A DNA stretch of 27,528 nt, taken from the IMG/VR virus record IMGVR_UViG_3300021519_000054, positions 1 to 27,528 of that record; one strand, given 5' to 3'. How positions within the stretch are numbered: the first letter of the stretch is position 1; each line of letters opens with the position of its first letter. Positions 3,401 to 26,493 of the stretch are shown in pieces. The translations under genes were made by a program, and so were the position numbers. Origin of the DNA: a virus. The notes below the pieces were generated by a model. It was not told the DNA's origin. It saw only the letters and a program-made list of their open reading frames with translations, and searched no databases.

Positions 3401-3504
3401 CGGAAGCGGAATCCCCTTGCCAGCGCGCCGAGATGGTGCGATGATTCCCGTGTTGCCAATCATGGTGACGCGCCGATTCAGACCGGCTCAAAGCCTTTTT
3501 CATC

Positions 3505-3553
3505 GCCCCTTCCGTGCCGCTCTCATTCGAGGCGGGTCTGACACGGAAGGGGC
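3505..3553. promoter_or_regulatory. 12-bp perfect palindrome upstream of the winged-helix gene
   Basis: GCCCCTTCCGTG (3505-3516) and CACGGAAGGGGC (3542-3553) are exact reverse complements with a 25-nt centre; inside, CCGC (3517-3520) can pair with GCGG (3532-3535). The right arm contains GGAAGGGG, the best Shine-Dalgarno candidate for the gene at 3567, so folding of the RNA would bury it. The left arm read leftward puts GGAAGGGG next to an ATG at 3503 that opens a 60-codon leftward ORF, giving a symmetric, possibly divergent control region. Only four T residues follow, so a terminator is less likely than an operator or translational switch. Confidence 0.55.
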
Positions 3554-3566
3554 AACTTTTGCAAAA

Positions 3567-4298
3567 ATGAACACCGTCACCCAAAAGGCCGAATGGCGCT
3601 TCCCGATTGAAAACAGTTTCGTGCGCGACACGTCCCTTTCCGTCGAGGCGCGGCTGCTCTACATCATCATCAAGGGCTACGTCGGCCCCGAATGCGAAAT
3701 GCCGTTCCCCTCGCTGAACACGCTCGCGAGGCACATGGACAGGCACCGTGTCAGCGTTCAGAAGCACCTGAAAGAATTGGAGCATTCCGGCTACATCGAG
3801 CGGCTGAAAACGAGGCGGAACGGCATGTTTTCCTCCACGCGCTACGTCCTGAACGACCGTAGTCAAAAAAAATCACTACGGTTCCCACCGACTACGGTAA
3901 AAGTGACTACAAAGAGGTACCAGCTTAAAGATGTACCATCCGATGCAAAAGATCGTCTAAAGAAGTCTAAAGAGACACCGGAAGTTTCCGGTGTGGAGTT
4001 TTTTGAAGAAATTCCGGCAGAATCGAAGCCGGATATGCGAGCAAAGGAGGAAAAGCTCAAGACGGTCAAAGTGCCTTGGCAATACCCATCGGAACTCGAG
4101 TTCAATGAGTTCGTCGTGTCCGAGAATCTGGACAACGTGGCAAACCGGAACGGCAACCTCTACGCCACCCTCTGCGCTCGCAAGTGGCACGACTGGCGAT
4201 ATCGTGACGCGAAATGGGTTCGCATTTCAGACTGGCGAAGCTACGTGACCGGACTGGAAGAGACGATGGAGGCCGCACGCACGCGGACACGCCGATGA
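3567..4298 (+). CDS. Winged-helix DNA-binding protein, possible replication initiator
   Basis: 243 residues. Residues about 22-95 form a winged helix-turn-helix of the type common in phage replication proteins: SVEARLLYIIIKGY, then FPSLNTLARHMDRHRVSVQK (helix-turn-helix) and LKELEHSGYIERL followed by the wing. Residues about 96-165 are a charged, low-complexity linker. About 168-232 is a compact aromatic C-terminal region (YPSELEFNEFV, LCARKWHDWRYRD, ISDWRSYV). The ATG at 3567 is chosen because it precedes the conserved fold; earlier in-frame starts run through unconvincing sequence and the palindrome. The linker DNA carries ACTACGGT repeats, a layout resembling lambda gene O with its internal origin. 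Lying between the terminase and the connector is unusual for an initiator. A transcription regulator is the main alternative. Confidence 0.7.
   Translation: MNTVTQKAEWRFPIENSFVRDTSLSVEARLLYIIIKGYVGPECEMPFPSLNTLARHMDRHRVSVQKHLKELEHSGYIERLKTRRNGMFSSTRYVLNDRSQKKSLRFPPTTVKVTTKRYQLKDVPSDAKDRLKKSKETPEVSGVEFFEEIPAESKPDMRAKEEKLKTVKVPWQYPSELEFNEFVVSENLDNVANRNGNLYATLCARKWHDWRYRDAKWVRISDWRSYVTGLEETMEAARTRTRR
3856..3913. repeat. Iteron-like ACTACGGT cluster with A-tract (candidate origin)
   Basis: The 8-mer ACTACGGT occurs exactly at 3875-3882 and 3891-3898, inverted at 3856-3863, and in part (ACTAC) at 3906-3910. Centre-to-centre spacings are about 19, 16 and 15 bp. An eight-A tract (3865-3872) separates the inverted pair. 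AT-richer DNA with two tandem 10-mers (GTCTAAAGAA at 3955-3964, GTCTAAAGAG at 3965-3974) follows. All of this codes for the low-complexity linker of the winged-helix protein. Repeats plus adjacent AT-rich DNA inside an initiator-like gene are the hallmark of lambdoid origins, but the function here is inferred. Confidence 0.5.
3975..4004 (+). terminator. Terminator-like hairpin inside the winged-helix gene
   Basis: ACACCGGAA (3975-3983) and TTCCGGTGT (3986-3994) are perfect complements separated by GT; the top pairs must open to form a loop. GGAG and then six T residues (3999-4004) follow. The form is that of an intrinsic terminator, but it lies within the open reading frame, so it may attenuate transcription into the portal genes or belong to the adjacent candidate origin. 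The 4-nt gap before the T-run weakens the terminator reading. Confidence 0.3.
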
Positions 4299-4396: not shown

Positions 4397-4996
4397 ATGG
4401 CATCCGTCACCACTACCGCTGGAGTTCCTTCGTCAATCGAGGCGGGCGACGAGTATCATTTTACGGTGAACTACCCGAGCTTTCCGGTCGGGACGTGGAC
4501 GGCGGTTTTCGTGATGGCAAAAGGTACCGGAACTCCGGTCAGCACAGCAGCGACAACCAGCGGAAACGACTTCCTAATTACGTTCACAAGTGCTGTCACT
4601 GCGGCGCTTGGAGTGGCCGGCACCGGAGAATATCAATGGGCGATGTACGTGACATCGAGCAGCCAGCGCACGACCGCCGACACTGGACTCATCACGGTGC
4701 TGCCAAACCTCGCCGTCGCGCGCACGCCGAGCTTTTCGGAGGCGCAAGTGACGCTGTTGCAAGGAGTTCTCGCGTCGTTCAACGCGACCGACAAGATGAA
4801 AGTGGACTTCAACGGCCAGATGTTCCAGCGGGCGCACATCGTGGACTACCAAAAGCAGCTTGTCTATTATCAGGCCGCGGTCATCCGTGAACAGCAGGCG
4901 CTCAAGGCGCAGCGTGGCGAGCACACGGGCGGGCGGATCGATCCGTTCTTCGTGCCGCAGTGGACTGGCCCTTACCTCAACCCTTACGTTCGATGA
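4397..4996 (+). CDS. gpW-like head-tail connector with an added N-terminal beta-sandwich domain
   Basis: 199 residues. The gene sits between the large terminase and the portal, where lambda encodes gpW, the protein that closes the filled head and accepts the tail. About residues 1-105 look like an immunoglobulin-like beta domain (EAGDEYHFTVNYPSFPVGTW, later TGEYQWAMYVTSS). About 115-180 is a helical segment (FSEAQVTLLQGVLASFNATD, then an amphipathic run ending in IREQQALKAQRG) of about gpW size, with a short hairpin KVDFNGQMFQRAH between. The stop overlaps the portal start (ATGA). The 98 nt before it hold only a 19-codon ORF. The gpW call is mainly positional; a fused beta domain plus gpW-like tail is an inference from the pattern of the sequence. 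Confidence 0.65.
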   Translation: MASVTTTAGVPSSIEAGDEYHFTVNYPSFPVGTWTAVFVMAKGTGTPVSTAATTSGNDFLITFTSAVTAALGVAGTGEYQWAMYVTSSSQRTTADTGLITVLPNLAVARTPSFSEAQVTLLQGVLASFNATDKMKVDFNGQMFQRAHIVDYQKQLVYYQAAVIREQQALKAQRGEHTGGRIDPFFVPQWTGPYLNPYVR

Positions 4997-6780
4997 ACCC
5001 ATTCAAATACATTCGCGGCCTGTTTGGAAGCAAAGGCAAGGTCGAGCAGCGCAACTACCGGGAGGCCATTTCACTCGGCGGCGTGAACTCGGATTGGAGC
5101 ACGTTAAATTCGAGTGAGGATTCCCAAATTTGGATGAACGCCTACCTCCTCACGGCCCGCACGCGTTCGCTGGCGCAGACGAATCCGACGTTTTGTCGGT
5201 ACCGCGAACTCATCTGGGGCAGCGTCTTCGGCGACGCCGGCACGATGCTGCGCATGAAGGTAAAGGAGCAGGAGGATCGCGTCATCCACACCGCCGCGGA
5301 GAAAGCTGCCATCCGCGCCCACGAGGAACGCCGCAACCGTGTGCTGCGCTACGTCGCCGAAAAAGAGGAACGCACATTCGAGCCGTTCGTGATGCTGCGC
5401 GACTTCGGCACCAACGGATCTCGCGTCGCACAGGTGAAGGTCGGCGAGCCGGACGTGTTCGCTAACCAGCTCATCGAGCGCAAATGGAAGGAATGGCAGC
5501 GCGCCGAGTTCTGCGACGTGCGGAAGACCCGCACCTACGCACAGATCCGCCAGCTTCGTCTTTGGAGTGCCATCCGTGACGGCGATTTCTTCATTCGCCT
5601 CGTGCGCGGTAAGAACGTCAACAAATTCGGCTTCTCGCTCCAGCTCATCAACGCAGAGTGGGTGGATCGCTTCTACAACGACACGATGCCAAACGGCGAT
5701 GAAGTCCGCATGGGCATCCGCTACAAGATGAACTCGTGGGGACTCGGCGAGCCGGTGAGCTACTTTTTAATCAAACGTCAACCGAAGGACTGGCAGTTCA
5801 GCGTGCCGGGCGCATTCAACTTCTACGGCGGCGCACTGCACGACGAGATTCCGGCAAGCGAGATCATCCACTACGCGCGCCCGATTGACGCCGAGAGCAC
5901 ACGTCCCGCGCCGTGGGTGGCATCCTGCATCCCGGTGGCTCGCCAACTCAGCCAATACGCCATCGCCGAGGTCATCGCCGCGCGTGCGCAGGCGTGCAAA
6001 GTCGGATGGCTGTCCTCGACCGTCGTGCCCGAGGGCGGCGTCCCGACCGACGTTGATCCGCGCACCGGAGTCCCGCGGCAGGAACTCACGCCGGGCAGCA
6101 TCGTCGGCCTTCCGTGGGGCGTCGAATACACGGAGTCCGATCCGAAGCACCCGAACGGGAATTTCGAGAACTTCCGCAAGGCGATGCTTAGGGAGCAGAG
6201 CGCCGGTATGCCGGGAGCGGCGTACTCGGAACTTGCGAACGACTACGAAGCGATCTCGTTCAGCGCAGGTCGTCTCCAGCATCTTGCTACGTCCAACATG
6301 ACGTACATGATTCAGCAGTTCGACATTGACGATGCTGAGATCCCGATTTTCGAGGCATGGCTGGAAATGGCGCTGATGACCGGACAGATTCCTTTGCCGC
6401 TCGCCAAGCTGGAAAAGTTCAATACTCCGCACTTCCAAGGCCCGCGCACCCCGCAGGTGGACGAGGTGAAGGAGGTCACTGCCGCAGCCCTTCGTGTCGC
6501 GAACCATTTCAGCAGCGACCAGCACGAGTGCGATCAATACGGCGTGGACTTTGAGGAAATGCTGTTCGAGCAGGCCGAGGCCAACATGCTCAAAGAATCA
6601 CTTGGCATGAGCACAGCGAAGACCGTCGAGAAACCAGCAGCCGTAGCTGCGCAGCAGGACGACAGCGAAGACGGCGATGGAGCGGACGATGAACCCGCGA
6701 AGCCAGCCGACAAGCCCGCGGCGAAACCTGCCAAGAAAAAGCACATGACGAAATCGAAGCGTGTGCAACTCGTTCCATGA
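4993..6780 (+). CDS. Portal protein, lambda gpB family
   Basis: 595 residues from the ATG at 4993, which overlaps the previous stop (ATGA). Portals form the dodecameric ring at one head vertex through which DNA enters and leaves. Family-like stretches are RLWSAIRDGDFFIRLVRG, QLINAEWVDRF, the IPASEIIHYARPIDAEST region, and a late segment resembling the lambda-type wing/crown (ANDYEAISFSAGRLQHLATS). The C-terminus (last ~50 residues) is an acidic stretch followed by an Ala/Pro/Lys-rich tail. The stop overlaps the start of an HNH gene (6777), whose insertion may have replaced the end of the original intergenic region. Confidence 0.93.
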   Translation: MNPFKYIRGLFGSKGKVEQRNYREAISLGGVNSDWSTLNSSEDSQIWMNAYLLTARTRSLAQTNPTFCRYRELIWGSVFGDAGTMLRMKVKEQEDRVIHTAAEKAAIRAHEERRNRVLRYVAEKEERTFEPFVMLRDFGTNGSRVAQVKVGEPDVFANQLIERKWKEWQRAEFCDVRKTRTYAQIRQLRLWSAIRDGDFFIRLVRGKNVNKFGFSLQLINAEWVDRFYNDTMPNGDEVRMGIRYKMNSWGLGEPVSYFLIKRQPKDWQFSVPGAFNFYGGALHDEIPASEIIHYARPIDAESTRPAPWVASCIPVARQLSQYAIAEVIAARAQACKVGWLSSTVVPEGGVPTDVDPRTGVPRQELTPGSIVGLPWGVEYTESDPKHPNGNFENFRKAMLREQSAGMPGAAYSELANDYEAISFSAGRLQHLATSNMTYMIQQFDIDDAEIPIFEAWLEMALMTGQIPLPLAKLEKFNTPHFQGPRTPQVDEVKEVTAAALRVANHFSSDQHECDQYGVDFEEMLFEQAEANMLKESLGMSTAKTVEKPAAVAAQQDDSEDGDGADDEPAKPADKPAAKPAKKKHMTKSKRVQLVP

Positions 6781-7241
6781 AAGTAATCGAACTCACAAAG
6801 GGGGCAGTTGCCATTGTTGACGACGAAGATTTTGAGCGTCTCGCGCAATTCAGGTGGTACTGTGATCACATGGGATATGCGCGAAGAAATGTAAAATCTA
6901 CACCCGGAAAGCAGCGCGCCATCCTCATGCACAGAGAGATCATTGCGAATGGGTCAGATAAACATGTGGATCACATAAATAGAAACCCTCTGGATAATCG
7001 GCGATGCAATTTACGACTGGCGACCGCCTCTGAAAACATGGCGAACAGAGCAATGCACTCAAACAACAAGGCAGGGAAAAAAGGCGTGAGCTTTGATAAG
7101 TTCAGAAGGAAATGGCGCGCCCAAATCAAGAAAAACGGGAAAGTTAAAAATTTGGGCAGATTCGAGACTGTTGAGGCCGCTCATGCCGCCTACGTCTCTG
7201 CCGCTACATTGATGCACGGCGAATTCGCCAGATTTAACTGA
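6777..7241 (+). CDS. HNH endonuclease with C-terminal AP2-like DNA-binding domain
   Basis: 154 residues. About 40-85 is the HNH_3 core: HREIIANGSDKHVDHINRNP with LDNRRCNLRLATASENMANR, giving the His, Asn and His ligands. About 98-150 resembles an AP2-type DNA-binding domain (GVSFDKFRRKWRAQIKKNGK, LGRFETVEAAHAAYVSAA). This pairing is typical of free-standing homing endonucleases. The ATG overlaps the portal stop, with no separate promoter seen. Base composition is more AT-rich than its neighbours, fitting recent insertion between portal and capsid genes. Confidence 0.92.
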   Translation: MKVIELTKGAVAIVDDEDFERLAQFRWYCDHMGYARRNVKSTPGKQRAILMHREIIANGSDKHVDHINRNPLDNRRCNLRLATASENMANRAMHSNNKAGKKGVSFDKFRRKWRAQIKKNGKVKNLGRFETVEAAHAAYVSAATLMHGEFARFN

Positions 7242-9986: not shown

Positions 9987-10369
9987 GTGAACGAAATTCA
10001 CGAACTCTGCTGGAAATGCGAAAGGCCGAAGATTCCGCTTAGGACTGCAATAAGAAGGACTGTGTCGCCATCTGGAAAAATCTACGTAACACGAGAGTGC
10101 AAGGACTGCGAAAGCGGAAAGCAGCAGATGGTGCGCATGAGAAAGGTTTTTGGGATCACGGATTTTACGCGCCGGAATATGCCGATTCTTTTCCATACAA
10201 GGCGTGGGGAAAAGTTTTGGACAAATGCGAATACCGCTGCGCGATTTGTGGAGAGCAAAAGCCGATGACAATTGACCATATTGTTCCAATGTCCAAGGGC
10301 GGAAGTCTTGAGATAGAGAACCTGCAACCGCTTTGTCGAAGCTGCAATTCGCGCAAATCGAACCGATGA
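9987..10369 (+). pseudogene. HNH endonuclease split by a -1 frameshift
   Basis: The first frame (GTG at 9987) encodes an N-terminal zinc-ribbon-like part with CWKC and CKDC. It then runs into unlikely sequence and stops at 10268. The HNH core lies in the -1 frame: CAIC, then MTIDHIVPMSKGGS, NLQPLC and CRSCNSRKSNR, ending at 10369. Joining the frames near the five-T run at 10147-10151 gives a normal HNH layout (two CxxC pairs before the HNH core) of about 127 residues. No canonical slippery heptamer is present, so an indel, either natural decay or a sequencing error, is more likely than programmed shifting. The stop overlaps the next ATG (ATGA), so the gene was recently intact. Confidence 0.7.
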
Positions 10370-10497: not shown

Positions 10498-10691
10498 ACG
10501 TCGAAAATATGAAGTGCGCGGATTGTCGGTTCTGGAAACCCTTCAGTTCTTGCGGACAGTGCCGCAGGTGGTCCCCGAAAAGCAGCGTCGGCAGCAGTGG
10601 GCAGAGTCAGCCTGTGTGGCCGCTCACTGAAGGCAATGACTGGTGCGGAGAATTCCAGCACAAAGCCAATTTCACAGAGGTCAAACCATGA
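10494..10691 (+). CDS. Small cysteine-rich (zinc-binding-like) protein
   Basis: 65 residues. MKCADCRFWKPFSSCGQCRR contains two CxxC pairs spaced as in a small zinc ribbon, followed by a conserved-looking tail with Trp and a late Cys (WPLTEGNDWCGEF). Short phage proteins of this pattern are common, with no established role. It sits in an unbroken chain of ATGA overlaps with the genes before and after it. Confidence 0.75.
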   Translation: MNVENMKCADCRFWKPFSSCGQCRRWSPKSSVGSSGQSQPVWPLTEGNDWCGEFQHKANFTEVKP

Positions 10692-12049
10692 CTGCCCGCA
10701 CCCTAAACATCGAACTCCTCACCCGCGCGCAGGACTTGCAGCGCGACAAGAAGTGGGCCGAAGCGATCCCGCTCTGGCGCGAGCATCTGGAATTTGACCC
10801 GCAGGACGCCGCCGTGTGGTTCAATCTCGGCGCGGCATTGCAGGCGACAGCGGACTCGCCGGCAGACCGCTACGCAGCGGCAGAGTGCTACCAGAAAGTG
10901 CTGACATGCCCAGGCGTCGAGATGGACACAAAGGCACACGCCATGTCGAACCTCGGCGTGATGATGCTCAAGGTCGGGCACCACGCCAAGGCGACGATCT
11001 GCTTCAACCTCGCCACGCAGATTGACCCGACAAACGCCGCTGCCCGCGTGAACCTCGGCGACGCTTTGCGCTACGAGGGAAAATACGACGAGGCGGACGC
11101 GGAATTCGAGGCCGTGTTGAAGCTCGACCCGGAAAGCCACGGCGCGAAGTTCAGCAGCGGGATGATCAAGCTACTGCTTGGCGATCTCGCGGAAGGTTTC
11201 GCCGGCTACGAGAGCCGCTTCTTCGTGGAAAGTTTTCCGGCGAAGCGTTTCATCACGGATGTTCCAGTGTGGAGCGGCGAGGACTTGGACGGAAAGACGC
11301 TTCTTTTGACGCAAGATCAGGGGTTCGGTGATCAGCTTCAGTTCATCCGCTATGCTGCCGAGATCAAGCGCGAGTGGCCGACGTGCTGCATTATATTTCG
11401 CGGCGATGAACCGCTGCGCAACATCATGCTGTGCGCCGATGGGGTGGACGAATTCGTGAGCAACGCCAGCGAGACCGCCTACGATTACCACGTCGCGACT
11501 ATGAGCCTTCCGTTCCGTATGGGCACCACGCTCGCGTCAATACCAAGCGCGGTGCCGTATATCGGGACCGGCGGCGCTGGTATCATATCCGATGAGAAGC
11601 TTGAGTCGGGATCATTTAATGTCGCGCTGGTTTGGGCTGGCTCGCCTCGGCACGGTCGCGACGAGTTCAGGAGCTTTGCGCCAGAGTTATTCCAGCCTCT
11701 CGTGGACGCGCACCCTGAATGCTCTTTTTACTCGCTCCAGTGCGGCCCGCGCGCCGATGAGGCAGCCAAGCTGCGTAACGTGACGGATCTCGCGCCACTT
11801 ATAAGCGACTGGACTCACACCGCGCAGGCGCTCCAGCAACTCGACCTGCTCATCACCGTGGACACCGCCGTTGCTCACTTGGCCGGCGCGCTTGGCTGCA
11901 ACGTCTGGATGCTGACACCGCACTCGCCGGACTGGCGGTGGCTGCTCGGGCGCGACACGTCGCCGTGGTATCCTTCCATGCGCCTGTTTCGTCAGGAGCG
12001 CGAAGGCGACTGGCAGAGCGTCATTAAACGAATCAGCGAAGCACTATGA
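10688..12049 (+). CDS. TPR protein with glycosyltransferase family 9-like domain
   Basis: 453 residues. About 10-175 are tetratricopeptide repeats (WAEAIPLWREHLEFDPQDAA, ATICFNLATQIDPTNAAARV, DEADAEFEAVLKLDPES). The C-terminal half carries a GT9/heptosyltransferase-like fold: LLLTQDQGFGDQLQFIRYA, YDYHVATMSLPFRMGT, ALVWAGSPRH, LDLLITVDTAVAHLAGALG and the closing DWRWLLGRDTSPWYP. Such proteins transfer sugars or use the sugar-binding fold in polysaccharide pathways. The ATG at 10688 overlaps the previous stop and has GAGG 7 nt ahead; an earlier in-frame start (10643) lies within the previous gene. It opens a run of coupled transferase genes. The target, a virion protein or host surface polymer, cannot be told. 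Confidence 0.88.
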   Translation: MTARTLNIELLTRAQDLQRDKKWAEAIPLWREHLEFDPQDAAVWFNLGAALQATADSPADRYAAAECYQKVLTCPGVEMDTKAHAMSNLGVMMLKVGHHAKATICFNLATQIDPTNAAARVNLGDALRYEGKYDEADAEFEAVLKLDPESHGAKFSSGMIKLLLGDLAEGFAGYESRFFVESFPAKRFITDVPVWSGEDLDGKTLLLTQDQGFGDQLQFIRYAAEIKREWPTCCIIFRGDEPLRNIMLCADGVDEFVSNASETAYDYHVATMSLPFRMGTTLASIPSAVPYIGTGGAGIISDEKLESGSFNVALVWAGSPRHGRDEFRSFAPELFQPLVDAHPECSFYSLQCGPRADEAAKLRNVTDLAPLISDWTHTAQALQQLDLLITVDTAVAHLAGALGCNVWMLTPHSPDWRWLLGRDTSPWYPSMRLFRQEREGDWQSVIKRISEAL

Positions 12050-12843
12050 ACAAGAACGGACTCGACACATACGAAAGCGACGCCAAAAAGCAGTCGCGCA
12101 GAATCATCGCGGAGGAATTATTCCGCAGAGTGAAACACCCGGCATTCTCGACGGTACTTTATTTGCCGGGTCCGCACGACTATCAGCGCAAGTCGCTTCT
12201 GAATATCGGATTCAAAAACGAAAACATCTTCGGCGTAGACTTGGGCGCAAACGTGCAAGCCGTGCGCGACCGTGGCGGGTATTGCATTGAGGGAAAGCTG
12301 CACGAAGTGATTGATAACTGGCCGACACATCGATGCATTGATGTAATCCTCGCCGACCTCTGCTGCGGATTGGGCGGCACTGCGCTGGAAACCGTAAGAG
12401 CAATCGGTTGTCTTTACGAAAAGCAAAAGTGCGCGCCGATTGTTTATATGAATCTTCAACGAGGGAGGGATGCAGACACAAACGGAGTGAGGGAATTTCT
12501 CAAAGGCTTGCGGTCAGATAGCTACTCGAAACACCGGGTGCTTCAGCTAATAATGTGGCAATACTCAGAATTTGGGATTCATAACAAGGACGCGTTACAT
12601 CGCGCATTTGGAAATGACGGAGACGCGATTGCAAAACATGCTTGCGAGGAAATCGACATGATGAAAATCCGAATGTGGGATTACAAAAATGCAGCATCTT
12701 CCGTAGTGATGGACAGCATGATATTCCAGTGGCCAAGATGGTTAATTGGAGAAAAAAGAGACGCGGCAAAAGTTACGACACAACGCATCGCCGCCACGCT
12801 CGCAACCGCAACCCGCCGCCGCAACGAAAGGATCGCAGCATGA
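12046..12843 (+). CDS. Rossmann-like protein, possibly methyltransferase-related
   Basis: 265 residues, unrecognised at family level. Residues about 35-110 read like a nucleotide or SAM-binding fold: STVLYLPGPHD (first strand and loop), NIFGVDLGANVQAVRDRGG (second strand with acidic end), CIDVILADLCCGLGG (fourth strand). The classical GxGxG is replaced by PGP, so cofactor binding is uncertain. The remainder has a helical middle and a basic Ala/Arg/Thr-rich end. The DNA is more AT-rich than its neighbours. It is joined by ATGA to the TPR-glycosyltransferase before it and to a true methyltransferase after it. Confidence 0.6.
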   Translation: MNKNGLDTYESDAKKQSRRIIAEELFRRVKHPAFSTVLYLPGPHDYQRKSLLNIGFKNENIFGVDLGANVQAVRDRGGYCIEGKLHEVIDNWPTHRCIDVILADLCCGLGGTALETVRAIGCLYEKQKCAPIVYMNLQRGRDADTNGVREFLKGLRSDSYSKHRVLQLIMWQYSEFGIHNKDALHRAFGNDGDAIAKHACEEIDMMKIRMWDYKNAASSVVMDSMIFQWPRWLIGEKRDAAKVTTQRIAATLATATRRRNERIAA

Positions 12844-13433
12844 CCCGCCTCGAATCCTTCATGGCCGCACGCGCGGCGGAGACTTATCCCGAGCCAGTCA
12901 CCGCACAGCACTCTGAAATCACGAGCATGATGGCACCGCTTGTCGCTGCGATGCTTCCGGCAGGCGCGAGCGTGCTTGACGTGGGCTGCGGGCAAGGGCC
13001 GGCGCTGGAATGGTTCAAGGCGCACGGATTTAAGGCACTTGGTATAAGCTCCAACGCAAAGGAAACGGCAGAGCTTAACGACCGCGGCTTTCACGTTCTT
13101 TTGCGAGACATGCACGAAATGCTTTTACCAGCAACCTGCTACGATTGCGTGTGGGCGCGGCACGTCCTAGAGCATTCCGTGATTCCCTTTTTCGTGCTGT
13201 ACGAATTTGCGCGCGTGCTGAAACCGGGCGGCATCCTATACGTGGAAGTTCCAATGCCTGACACGCCATGCAACCATGTCGCAAATCTGAACCATTACAG
13301 CGTTCTCGGTAAGGACGCATGGCTATGTCTTATCGCCCGCTCAGGCTTTGAGCTTCACGAAGTCCGCGAGATTGGCCTGCAAACTATGGCAGGACCGGAC
13401 AAATATCTGAGCGTGATCGCTCGCAAGCTATGA
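12840..13433 (+). CDS. Class I SAM-dependent methyltransferase
   Basis: 197 residues. Motif I VLDVGCGQGPALEWF (about residues 42-56), the second strand ALGISSN, the acidic-motif region RDMHEMLLPATCYDCVWARH, and LEHSVIPFFVLYEFARVLKP followed by GGILYVEVP are diagnostic of the Methyltransf_11/23 group. It probably acts on a small molecule or sugar. The ATG at 12840 is preferred over an earlier in-frame start inside the previous gene: it overlaps the stop (ATGA) and has AAAGGA about 9 nt ahead. The stop overlaps the next glycosyltransferase start. Confidence 0.92.
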   Translation: MTRLESFMAARAAETYPEPVTAQHSEITSMMAPLVAAMLPAGASVLDVGCGQGPALEWFKAHGFKALGISSNAKETAELNDRGFHVLLRDMHEMLLPATCYDCVWARHVLEHSVIPFFVLYEFARVLKPGGILYVEVPMPDTPCNHVANLNHYSVLGKDAWLCLIARSGFELHEVREIGLQTMAGPDKYLSVIARKL

Positions 13434-14425
13434 AAACCATGCACTTCGCAGGCTCTCCCGGCACCGGCTACGGATGGGGCGTGTTTAACGCCAACATGTA
13501 TCGCGAACTCGACAAGCACTTCGTCATGGTGACATCGAACCACGACCCGGTTGACGTGTGCTTTATGCCGGTTGACGGCGCATTCCGACCGCTCACGCCA
13601 GCGCGAGGGAAGGTCAACGTGTGCATGAACTTTTTCGAGTCGCCGCTGGAACCGGACGCGCGAGAGAACGCCGCGCAATTCGACGTGTGTTTCGTCGGCT
13701 CGACATGGTGCCAGCAGCGATGCGCAGAGGCGGGCATCCTCAATACGCGCGTGCTCATCCAAGGCGTTGACGGCGACATCTTCAAGCCGCAGCCGCCGCG
13801 CGGACCGGACGGCACGATCCGCATTTTCAGCGGCGGCAAATTCGAGTATCGTAAAGGGCAGGACTTGGTGATCGCAGCCTTCCGCGAGTTCGTGAAGGTG
13901 CATCCCGAGGCGCACCTTGTCTGCGCGTGGCATAACCCGTGGCCTCAACTCATGTTAGCAGCCGTTTGCGATAAGCGATGCGCGCTCAATCCAAAGGCGA
14001 GCGGGCAAACTCAGGAGGAATATCTCGAATCACTTCTCGTCATCAACGGTATCCCGCGCGAGTCATTCACCATCCTCCCGCAACTCAGCCAACACGACCT
14101 CGCGCGCGAGATGGCGAACACGGATTTCGGACTGTTCCCGAATCGGTGCGAGGGCGGAACGAACCTCGTCCTGATGGAATACGCGGCACTAGGCCGCGAG
14201 ATTGTCGCAAACGTGCTGACCGGCCACGCCGACGTTGAAAACGCAATCTCGATGCCGATTGAAGCGACCGAAGACGAGAATCATTGGGCGCTTCAACCCG
14301 TCGCCAACATCACCGACGCGATGAGGGACGCAGCGGATTACCCCCGGAGCGATTTCACCGGATGCTCATGGACATGGGAGGACGCGGCGAAAACGGTGCT
14401 CTCGGAGATTGACAATCTCTCCTGA
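13430..14425 (+). CDS. Glycosyltransferase, GT4-like
   Basis: 331 residues. The N-terminal part has the loop GSPGTGYGWGVFNANMYREL, where such enzymes often begin, and a middle strand FDVCFVGSTWCQQ. The C-terminal nucleotide-sugar half shows IRIFSGGKFEYRKGQDLVI, the strand SFTILPQLSQHDLAREMANT, and the acidic motif FPNRCEGGTNLVLMEYAALG. The last corresponds to the conserved glutamate pair of GT4 enzymes. It is the fourth gene of the ATGA-coupled transferase cassette and is followed by neck genes 20 nt later, so the cassette ends here. Confidence 0.9.
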   Translation: MKTMHFAGSPGTGYGWGVFNANMYRELDKHFVMVTSNHDPVDVCFMPVDGAFRPLTPARGKVNVCMNFFESPLEPDARENAAQFDVCFVGSTWCQQRCAEAGILNTRVLIQGVDGDIFKPQPPRGPDGTIRIFSGGKFEYRKGQDLVIAAFREFVKVHPEAHLVCAWHNPWPQLMLAAVCDKRCALNPKASGQTQEEYLESLLVINGIPRESFTILPQLSQHDLAREMANTDFGLFPNRCEGGTNLVLMEYAALGREIVANVLTGHADVENAISMPIEATEDENHWALQPVANITDAMRDAADYPRSDFTGCSWTWEDAAKTVLSEIDNLS

Positions 14426-18464: not shown

Positions 18465-18550
18465 CGATTCACTGAGTTAAGCGTAAAAAAGACAAGCCAT
18501 CGCGGAGTTCGTTGCTCCGAAATGGCTCTAACGCCAAGCACACATACATT
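18461..18550 (+). promoter_or_regulatory. Promoter and hairpin leader of the first HNH gene (copy 1)
   Basis: TTGACG (18461-18466), 17 nt, TAAAAA (18484-18489). Transcription would begin near 18496, at the base of a stem-loop: GCCAT (18496-18500) with ATGGC (18522-18526), an internal loop CG/AA, then CGGAG (18503-18507) with CTCCG (18515-18519), loop of 7. GGCTCTAA (18524-18531) and AGCACAC-A-TACATT (18537-18550) then lead to the ATG. No Shine-Dalgarno is seen. The unit aligns without gaps to 25864-25953, about 54 of 90 bases identical by hand count. Confidence 0.75.
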
Positions 18551-19165
18551 ATGCCGAACGCTTCAAACCCAATCGCGGAACTCACAGAAAAAGACAAGGA
18601 AAGATTCTGGAAACGAGTCGAAAAAAGAGGTCCAGACGAATGTTGGCTATGGCGCGGGCTTCTGACTAGAGGCGGATACGGAAGCATCAGGATAGGTCGA
18701 AAAATGGTCACTACGCACAGGGTTAGTTACTTCATTTCATTCGGACAAATCACAAATGGGCTTCACGCTCTGCACAAATGCGACGTTCGCAACTGCGTGA
18801 ATCCGGCGCACATTTTTCTAGGGACGAATCTCGAAAACATGATTGACCGTGAGGCGAAGGGGCGAAACAAACCGCAGCGCGGAGACAAGAATGGTGCGCG
18901 ACTTTATCCCGAACGACTCATGCGCGGAGACGGACATTGGGCGCGCACAAATCCAGAAAAAGTGAAACGAGGAATCCACCAATACGCGGCAAAACTGTCA
19001 GATGAAAAGGTGCGTGAAGCGAGGGCGAGACACGCAGCCGGAGGCGTGACATTCACTGACCTTGGAAAAGAATATGGAGTTTCAAACGTGGCGATCACGA
19101 ATGCGATCAGAGGAAAGACGTGGGCATCCATTCCTCTGCTTGCGCCCGTGTCCGAGCTGGGGTAA
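18551..19165 (+). CDS. HNH homing endonuclease (copy 1) with C-terminal HTH
   Basis: 204 residues. An N-terminal segment LTEKDKERFWKRVEKRG and the W(L)W pair introduce the domain. The HNH_3 core spans about 60-105: THRVSYFISFG, LHALHKCDVRNCVNPAHIFL, GTNLENMIDREAKGR, with His-Cys-Cys-His and the Asn. A C-terminal helix-turn-helix (LGKEYGVSNVAITNAIRGKT) is expected to contact DNA. It shares this order, start codon and upstream leader with 25954-26493. The DNA is more AT-rich than the tail genes. It begins 86 nt after the GT stop and ends 9 nt before the next tail gene, a clean insertion between genes. Confidence 0.9.
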   Translation: MPNASNPIAELTEKDKERFWKRVEKRGPDECWLWRGLLTRGGYGSIRIGRKMVTTHRVSYFISFGQITNGLHALHKCDVRNCVNPAHIFLGTNLENMIDREAKGRNKPQRGDKNGARLYPERLMRGDGHWARTNPEKVKRGIHQYAAKLSDEKVREARARHAAGGVTFTDLGKEYGVSNVAITNAIRGKTWASIPLLAPVSELG

Positions 19166-20214: not shown

Positions 20215-20922
20215 ATGAATCCTGAACTTGTACTGCAACAACCTTGTGACTACGAATGCGCGTTCACGACGCCAGACCCGCTTTTCGAGAGCGACGAGTA
20301 CTGCGCCCAAACCAAACTCGACGGCGTAAAGCTCATCATCTTTTCCGAGAACGGCGACCTCCGCGGTGAGTCACGCAGCGGTCGCGGCATGAAGCTCTCC
20401 GCAAAGACTCGCGCATTCATGCCGACGCACGGCACTTTCGTCGTGGAGGGAGAGCAAGGCGACAAGTCCACAGGCGACACCGGCTTTCAGGCGTTCGACG
20501 TGATCTCCGAAAACGGTGAGGACGTTCGGCATCTTTGCTACGCCGACCGGCTCGCCATCCTCGCGACGCTCGGCGTGCCCGTCATCCGCACGGTGTACGG
20601 TGCCGCGGCGAAGCGACGGCTGCACGTCGAGGTGTTTGCAAATGGCGGCGAGGGAATTGTGATGAAGCGCCTTGATGCCGTGTATCGGCCTGGCAAGACA
20701 TCGGCGCAACTCAAGATCAAAAATTGGAAGTCCGATACCTTTCGGGTGACGCATGTTGACGGGATGGGGGTTGAGCTTTCGACGATGGCAGGCGTTCCTT
20801 GCGGACGTTGCGCTGGATACGCCAACGCAGGGGCGCTCGTGGAAGTCCGATTTCAGGAAGTGACTGAGGCTGGAAAGCTGCGTTGCCCGACGATCATCGG
20901 CACACGGGAGGATTTGGAGTAG
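20215..20922 (+). CDS. Compact ATP-dependent DNA (polynucleotide) ligase
   Basis: 235 residues. Ligases join nicks using a lysine-AMP intermediate. Visible nucleotidyltransferase motifs are: motif I KLDGVKLI with Lys34; an arginine-rich RGESRSGRGMKL after it; motif III near GTFVVEGEQ; motif IIIa-like AFDVI; motif IV GGEGIVMKRL (about 144-153); motif V QLKIKNWKS with paired lysines (about 165-173). About 60 C-terminal residues (VTHVDGMGVELSTMAG onward, with CGRC) look like a small OB domain. The length is near that of the minimal phage/viral ligases. It lies in the tail region, away from any visible replication module, and is encoded just behind the HTH protein. ATG at 20215 is chosen because the earlier in-frame sequence overlaps that gene. 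Confidence 0.88.
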   Translation: MNPELVLQQPCDYECAFTTPDPLFESDEYCAQTKLDGVKLIIFSENGDLRGESRSGRGMKLSAKTRAFMPTHGTFVVEGEQGDKSTGDTGFQAFDVISENGEDVRHLCYADRLAILATLGVPVIRTVYGAAAKRRLHVEVFANGGEGIVMKRLDAVYRPGKTSAQLKIKNWKSDTFRVTHVDGMGVELSTMAGVPCGRCAGYANAGALVEVRFQEVTEAGKLRCPTIIGTREDLE

Positions 20923-25758: not shown

Positions 25759-25863
25759 CGAGCTATCAAGAGGATTGACATCGAGCCGTGATCAACCCGT
25801 AGTGATTCCGCCCTCCCCCGCGACGGCTGGCACCACAATTCAGTGCGTGTAATCACGCCGCGC

Positions 25864-25953
25864 TTGACGCACTCCCGAAAATCCGCTACAAAAGACGAAC
25901 CGCCGCGATGTATTCAGCACCGCGACGGCTCTAAACATCAGCACACTTACATT
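25864..25953 (+). promoter_or_regulatory. Promoter and hairpin leader of the second HNH gene (copy 2)
   Basis: TTGACG (25864-25869), 17 nt, TACAAA (25887-25892), at the same distance (90 nt) from its ATG as copy 1. Its stem uses the same positions: CC-G/C-GG in the outer arm and CG-T/A-G in the inner arm, with the 7-nt loop kept. Two base pairs differ by compensatory changes relative to copy 1. GGCTCTAA (25927-25934) and AGCACACTTACATT (25940-25953) are conserved. Confidence 0.75.
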
Positions 25954-26493
25954 ATGCCGACGCCTACACAAACAATCCCCACCCTCACGGAAAAAGACAA
26001 GTCTCGATTTTGGGGCAAAGTTGAGAAGCTAGGAAACGAAAGCGGTTGCTGGCTGTGGGCCGGATATTCTGATTCCGCAGGGTATGGGAATTTTCAACTG
26101 CTAAAACTGCCAAGGAAGGCGCATCGCGTTGCGTTCGTTTTAAGCGGGCGCAAACTCATGGAAGGAATGTGCGTGTTGCATAAATGCGACACGCCTGGAT
26201 GCGTGAACCCGGCACATCTTCGCGCAGGAACGCATCGCGAAAATTCCAAGGACATGGTTTCAAAAGGGAGGCAGGCACGCGGCGAAACTCACATGAGCAG
26301 GACAAAGCCAGAGGCGTTGCTTCGCGGGGTCAAAAATCCGAGGGCAATTCTTGACGATGCTGCGGTTCACAAAATCCGAGCGCGTTTCGCAAAAGGAGAG
26401 GCGATTTCTGTCTTGCGTGAAGAAATCGGGGTGTCGCACGGGTGCATCAGCAGCATCGTTCATGGCCGGAGTTGGAAGCACCTTGTCGCTTGA
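25954..26493 (+). CDS. HNH homing endonuclease (copy 2) with C-terminal HTH
   Basis: 179 residues. Same order as 18551-19165: LTEKDKSRFWGKVEKLG, WLWAGYSD, then the HNH core (KAHRVAFVLSG, VLHKCDTPGCVNPAHLRAGT, HRENSKDMVSKGR) and a final helix-turn-helix (LREEIGVSHGCISSIVHGRS). It is shorter in the spacer between the two parts. It carries its own promoter and leader at 25864-25953, follows the zinc-ribbon gene, and stands before the tail fibre gene with a 31-nt gap. Homing to nearby conserved tail DNA is the usual behaviour of such genes; the target is unknown. Confidence 0.9.
   Translation: MPTPTQTIPTLTEKDKSRFWGKVEKLGNESGCWLWAGYSDSAGYGNFQLLKLPRKAHRVAFVLSGRKLMEGMCVLHKCDTPGCVNPAHLRAGTHRENSKDMVSKGRQARGETHMSRTKPEALLRGVKNPRAILDDAAVHKIRARFAKGEAISVLREEIGVSHGCISSIVHGRSWKHLVA

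Follow-up and report, generated by a model that had tools for sequence, protein, structure and literature searches.

Repeats inside a winged-helix initiator gene mark a probable replication origin in a phage head gene cluster

Introduction

In phage lambda (O and ori-lambda) and in the O proteins of Stx phages, iterons lie in the middle of the initiator gene, beside an AT-rich region (PMC7466680). Comparable layouts occur in plasmids: the RepA_N initiators of pSK41 and pTZ2162 (4pt7, 5kbj) use a winged-helix N-terminus to bind Rep boxes placed centrally within rep (PMC5703833). Rep of the staphylococcal plasmid pPR9 is a functional initiator with an HTH_36 (pfam13730) N-terminal domain of phage origin, and its DNA-binding domain and origin were exchanged together as a module (PMC5703833). 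In PLE RepA, the DNA-binding domain and the iterons covary as a specificity module and the C-terminus is conserved (PMC8263062).

Here we describe a locus of this kind in a 27,528-bp stretch of viral DNA, analysed whole and called the window. We consider it highly likely that the window holds a lambda-O-like intragenic origin at 3856-3976, within an initiator gene at 3567-4298, with binding and origin activity predicted from sequence. The repeats found there are very probably sites bound by the phage's own replication initiator, inside that initiator's gene.

Results

An HTH_36 replication initiator

The gene and its parts are as follows.

3567-4298, + strand: predicted replication initiator gene, 243 aa, with N-terminal winged helix, linker and C-terminal helical domain (HTH_36, phrog_270, AlphaFold)
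3636-3797, + strand: HTH_36 winged-helix domain, residues 24-77 (Pfam)
3747-3788, + strand: recognition helix, residues 61-74 (V62 in the window, E62 in relatives)
3795-3851, + strand: wing, residues 77-95 (R79, L80 and N85 unlike relatives)
4035-4292, + strand: C-terminal domain, residues 157-242 (AlphaFold), presumed to recruit helicase or primase

By profile, the product is an HTH_36 phage replication initiator of the phrog_270 type, and its initiation activity is predicted on that basis. Pfam HTH_36 was matched at E 1.2e-10 (41.4 bits, above the gathering cutoff of 25), and the replication initiation protein phrog_270 tops the PHROG matches (1.1e-12), limited to residues 14-163, with further replication-initiator matches to phrog_4707, 4221 and 8102. 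Neither Phage_rep_O, the lambda O family, nor RepA_N (PF06970) appeared among the Pfam matches at E 0.01, and the PHROG 'O-like' profiles matched weakly. The winged helix and disordered linker proposed in the initial annotation are borne out by the HTH_36 match at residues 24-77 and by AlphaFold pLDDT below 50 at residues 100-155.

Top Foldseek matches include 4pt7, 5kbj and 4pql, which we take to be staphylococcal plasmid RepA structures; because their E values are ~0.01 and MarR-type regulators score similarly, this similarity supports a winged helix rather than RepA-type membership. A sequence search of PDB chains returned no significant match, and no relatives were found among 84,980 cellular genomes. 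In annotated phages the match is restricted to the winged helix, at ~30% identity.

A probable rep-origin cassette among head genes

The initiator gene stands among the following neighbours.

541-2472, + strand: large terminase, GpA type (Pfam and PHROG)
2480-2806, − strand: HNH endonuclease-like gene between terminase and rep cassette (PHROG)
3406-3572, + strand: upstream leader of rep, sharing 90% identity with the DNA that precedes rep in contigs L003 and L004
4397-4996, + strand: head-tail joining protein, or connector (phrog_5774, 1e-15)
4993-6780, + strand: portal (Pfam and PHROG)

The position between terminase and portal genes to which the initial annotation drew attention is therefore real. 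It is an odd setting, and the cassette is placed elsewhere in relatives, where terminase genes are likewise no more than a few kb away. L003 and L004 carry the rep segment at 93% DNA identity in a phage whose packaging genes differ; in L004 these are on the opposite strand. The rep-origin cassette has moved between phages.

The cassette could be real and its placement nevertheless due to chimeric metagenome assembly or to a dead insertion, an account compatible with the origin reading of the array. It would fit contig L036, in which the connector and portal are 78% and 87% identical to those of the window and the connector comes immediately after terminase, rep being absent, and it would fit the cassette's best DNA matches, which are in phages with unrelated terminases. 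Against it, rep and the reading frames on both sides are intact, and terminase, connector and portal stand in normal order. In L023, moreover, a homologous rep sits just upstream of a terminase with 65% identity, which shows that initiator genes do occur next to such packaging genes. We regard a chimera or dead insertion as unlikely.

Five HNH-type endonuclease genes are scattered among the structural genes (2480-2806 on the − strand, beside the rep cassette; 6777-7241; 10097-10369; 18512-19165; and 25843-26493), a gene with an ATP-dependent DNA ligase domain lies in the tail gene region (20220-20922), and genes for a TPR protein, a methyltransferase and a glycosyltransferase lie inside the structural gene cluster (10643-14425).

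An iteron array with fixed geometry

The candidate origin comprises the following elements.

3856-3863, − strand: iteron 1, inverted ACTACGGT, exact match (GCTACGGT in L002-L005)
3865-3872, + strand: A8 tract between iterons 1 and 2
3875-3882, + strand: iteron 2, ACTACGGT, exact match
3891-3898, + strand: iteron 3, ACTACGGT, exact match
3897-3976, + strand: AT-rich low-stability segment, candidate unwinding element
3906-3910, + strand: partial iteron 4 (ACTAC), A to G in relatives in concert with the other copies
3955-3973, + strand: GTCTAAAGA tandem repeat within the AT-rich segment, units at 3955 and 3965, similar in L023
3975-4004, + strand: terminator-like perfect 9-bp hairpin with T6 within the initiator coding sequence

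The three exact copies (one inverted), the partial fourth and the A8 tract reported in the initial annotation were all found again at these coordinates, and the window contains no further exact copy of ACTACGGT. The array spans codons 97-115 of the 243-codon gene, in its linker-coding part. As in the lambda-type intragenic design, the iterons thus fall within the linker region of the initiator gene and an AT-rich segment of low stability adjoins them. The AT-richer DNA with short tandem repeats previously noticed beside the copies corresponds to this segment, the second least stable 80 bp of the 27,528-bp record, and to the GTCTAAAGA units; a comparable AGATTCTTT tandem repeat lies downstream of the L023 array. 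The hairpin at 3975-4004 was rejected as a conserved origin part (z −3.6 in the window versus −1.3 to +0.2 in L005, L023 and L029). GC skew gave no clear signal along the record, a linear fragment, which makes skew uninformative and leaves room for an origin elsewhere.

We searched IMG/VR for the pattern ACCGTAG-spacer-CTACGGT-spacer-CTACGGT and for a strict version of it. The broad pattern recovered the family and further loci. The strict geometry occurred at rep-linked loci exclusively; the ordered arrangement ACCGTAG-N-CTACGGT-N-CTACGGT arose in none of 100 shuffles of the window. A 13/9 spacing (ACCGTAG-N13-CTACGGT-N9-CTACGGT) is common to the window, L002-L005, L023, L027, L029 and L030, and all related full-length initiator loci that were found preserve the repeats at the DNA level, concertedly and at a fixed geometry. 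In the L023 homologue, which is 47% identical across residues 2-147, the residue corresponding to 62 is E and the sites are GCTACGGT; the array there, at the same 13/9 spacing, is reversed in orientation relative to the gene. In L027, L029 and L030 the array is non-coding and lies upstream of the initiator.

The L029-type initiator shares a 54%-identical C-terminal domain and has a different N-terminus, in which no HTH_36 domain was found; it had no match in annotated phages, and its AlphaFold model has a mean pLDDT of 37. Since this protein has another N-terminus yet keeps the array, HTH_36 is perhaps not the array's sole reader. Just upstream of the CTACGGT array and initiator in L029, at 10704-10801, about eight tandem copies of an 11-bp unit (GGCGTGACTGA) lie in helical phase and are a candidate second set of binding sites.

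More distant HTH_36 O-like initiators, in L032, L034 and L035, carry 18-bp CTACGGT iterons in their linker DNA, and the HTH_36 initiators of Staphylococcus phage IME-SA4 and Pseudomonas phages LPPA33 and LESphi3 carry other repeats there, which indicates that the repeats-in-linker layout is widespread. The checks made on the other motif matches (L007-L011, L024, L025, L028 and L033) gave no link to an initiator. L033, a contig with no recognised initiator, has two clusters of inverted CTACGGT sites (GTCCACCGTAGC...GCTACGGTGGAC) at 1094-1139 and 1949-1986, possibly an unrelated operator.

The array of the window might itself be an operator, through which the winged-helix protein or another phage regulator controls transcription. 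Winged helices of the HTH_36 type also resemble MarR regulators, and in L029 the array is closely followed by a promoter-like TTGACT-17-TAATAT and the start codon of the initiator. However, the array is mid-gene in the window and in L023, its surroundings in the window yielded no promoter-like site, an unwinding-type segment adjoins it, and replication initiators head the protein's profile matches. Each array-bearing record has a single array, always adjoining the initiator gene. Autoregulation and origin function can also coexist, as in iteron plasmids. We consider a purely regulatory array very unlikely.

Concerted change of repeats and reading domain

Each of the three ACTACGGT copies falls in a different reading phase, which rules out a repetitive peptide as their source. 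They also use rare codons (CTA, AGT and GTA at 4%, 6% and 7% of their amino acids, respectively). Synonymous codon shuffling of the gene never placed three ACTACGGT copies within 60 bp (0 of 100,000), and any 8-mer occurred at least three times in 60 bp in 18 of 5,000 shuffles (~0.4%); the rest of the window has one other, unrelated cluster of that density. Given this rate and the second cluster, the cluster of copies by itself is only moderately improbable. Taken alone it is suggestive, and conservation in relatives decides.

Full-length homologues were found in four IMG/VR contigs, at 93% protein identity in L002, L003 and L004 and 75% in L005. All four have GCTACGGT at every copy where the window has ACTACGGT. 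Between L002 and the window, the 60-nt array region differs by 11 changes: the core-flanking bases changed in 4 of 4 cases (A to G from window to L002, in site orientation) versus 0 of 25 core bases (hypergeometric P ~8e-6 for this post hoc contrast). On the protein side, residues 1-60 show 9 synonymous and no amino-acid changes, compared with 9 synonymous and 10 amino-acid changes in codons 61-116 (Fisher p 0.01). Within residues 1-95 the complete list of amino-acid changes is V62E, where the recognition helix begins, plus three in the wing: R79K, L80I and N85G. L005 keeps the N-terminus and linker and has a diverged C-terminus, and the head-plus-origin block therefore behaves as a module.

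Their joint change across related phages marks the repeats and the protein's DNA-reading part as a matched pair. That the repeats instead arose by coincidence, from the codons or the peptide of a linker of low complexity, which the shuffle rate and the second cluster might favour, is extremely improbable and already contradicted by the reading phases and rare codons, by the concerted change, and by the same geometry in reversed and non-coding contexts. As far as these comparisons go, the covariation amounts in essence to a single event, the window versus one clade, with L023 fitting as outgroup. More tentatively, and with the odds against it, the window lineage may represent a natural specificity switch, in which V62 and three wing residues shifted the preference at the first base from G to A at all sites at once, with one array also being read by two unrelated heads (HTH_36 and the L029-type N-terminus) on the same C-terminal domain.

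A proposed mechanism

Under the origin reading, the winged-helix N-terminus would bind CTACGGT iterons in the very stretch of DNA encoding its flexible linker. Once bound, multiple protein molecules would wrap the array and help melt the adjoining AT-rich segment at 3897-3976, and the C-terminal domain would then recruit host helicase or primase machinery. We infer binding, melting, recruitment and origin activity; the family assignment, the array with its fixed geometry and its concerted change with the recognition helix, the low-stability segment and the differing genomic positions of the cassette are observed. With the sites inside the coding sequence, initiator and origin would be passed on and exchanged as a single cassette, able to change specificity together.

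Discussion

Intragenic origins are already known as a kind, from lambda O and from Rep of pSK41 and pPR9; the useful part of this locus is the natural switch of recognition helix and iterons. The close-relative pair offers a test of how initiator and origin may change specificity without loss of function, setting four amino-acid changes against one base per iteron. The rep-origin cassette also passes intact from one phage to another where packaging genes are unrelated, and it can be housed among head genes; gene order is therefore no sure guide to where replication genes lie.

The initial annotation had likened the locus to the origin inside lambda O. In layout this holds, with iterons in linker DNA, and in mechanism it probably does; in protein family it fails, the initiator being HTH_36 rather than lambda O. 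Like lambda O and ori-lambda, the window combines an N-terminal DNA-binding domain, mid-gene iterons, an AT-rich neighbour and an origin-encoded linker. It differs in having HTH_36 with no Phage_rep_O match, one inverted iteron, cores of 7-8 bp at steps of 20 and 16 bp, and a place between the terminase and portal genes, where no neighbouring helicase-loader gene was recognised.

Among plasmid systems, pPR9 Rep shares the HTH_36 N-terminal domain and the modular pairing of DNA-binding domain and origin; unlike the window, it belongs to a plasmid and has another C-terminal domain. The RepA_N proteins of pSK41 and pTZ2162 resemble the window in their winged-helix N-terminus, origin-encoded linker and C-terminal recruitment domain (presumed in the window), whereas the window protein has no RepA_N (PF06970) match and weak fold similarity (E ~0.01). 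PLE RepA provides the parallel for covariation of DNA-binding domain and iterons, although there the origin is intergenic, the whole domain is swapped and the protein is of the RepA_N type.

Closest in layout are the HTH_36 and O-like initiators of L032, L034, L035 and the Pseudomonas and Staphylococcus phages, which combine a winged helix with repeats in linker DNA. Unlike those of the window, the L032-type iterons are in-frame 18-bp direct repeats that encode a repetitive ATVA peptide, and they have the CTACGGT core in common with it.
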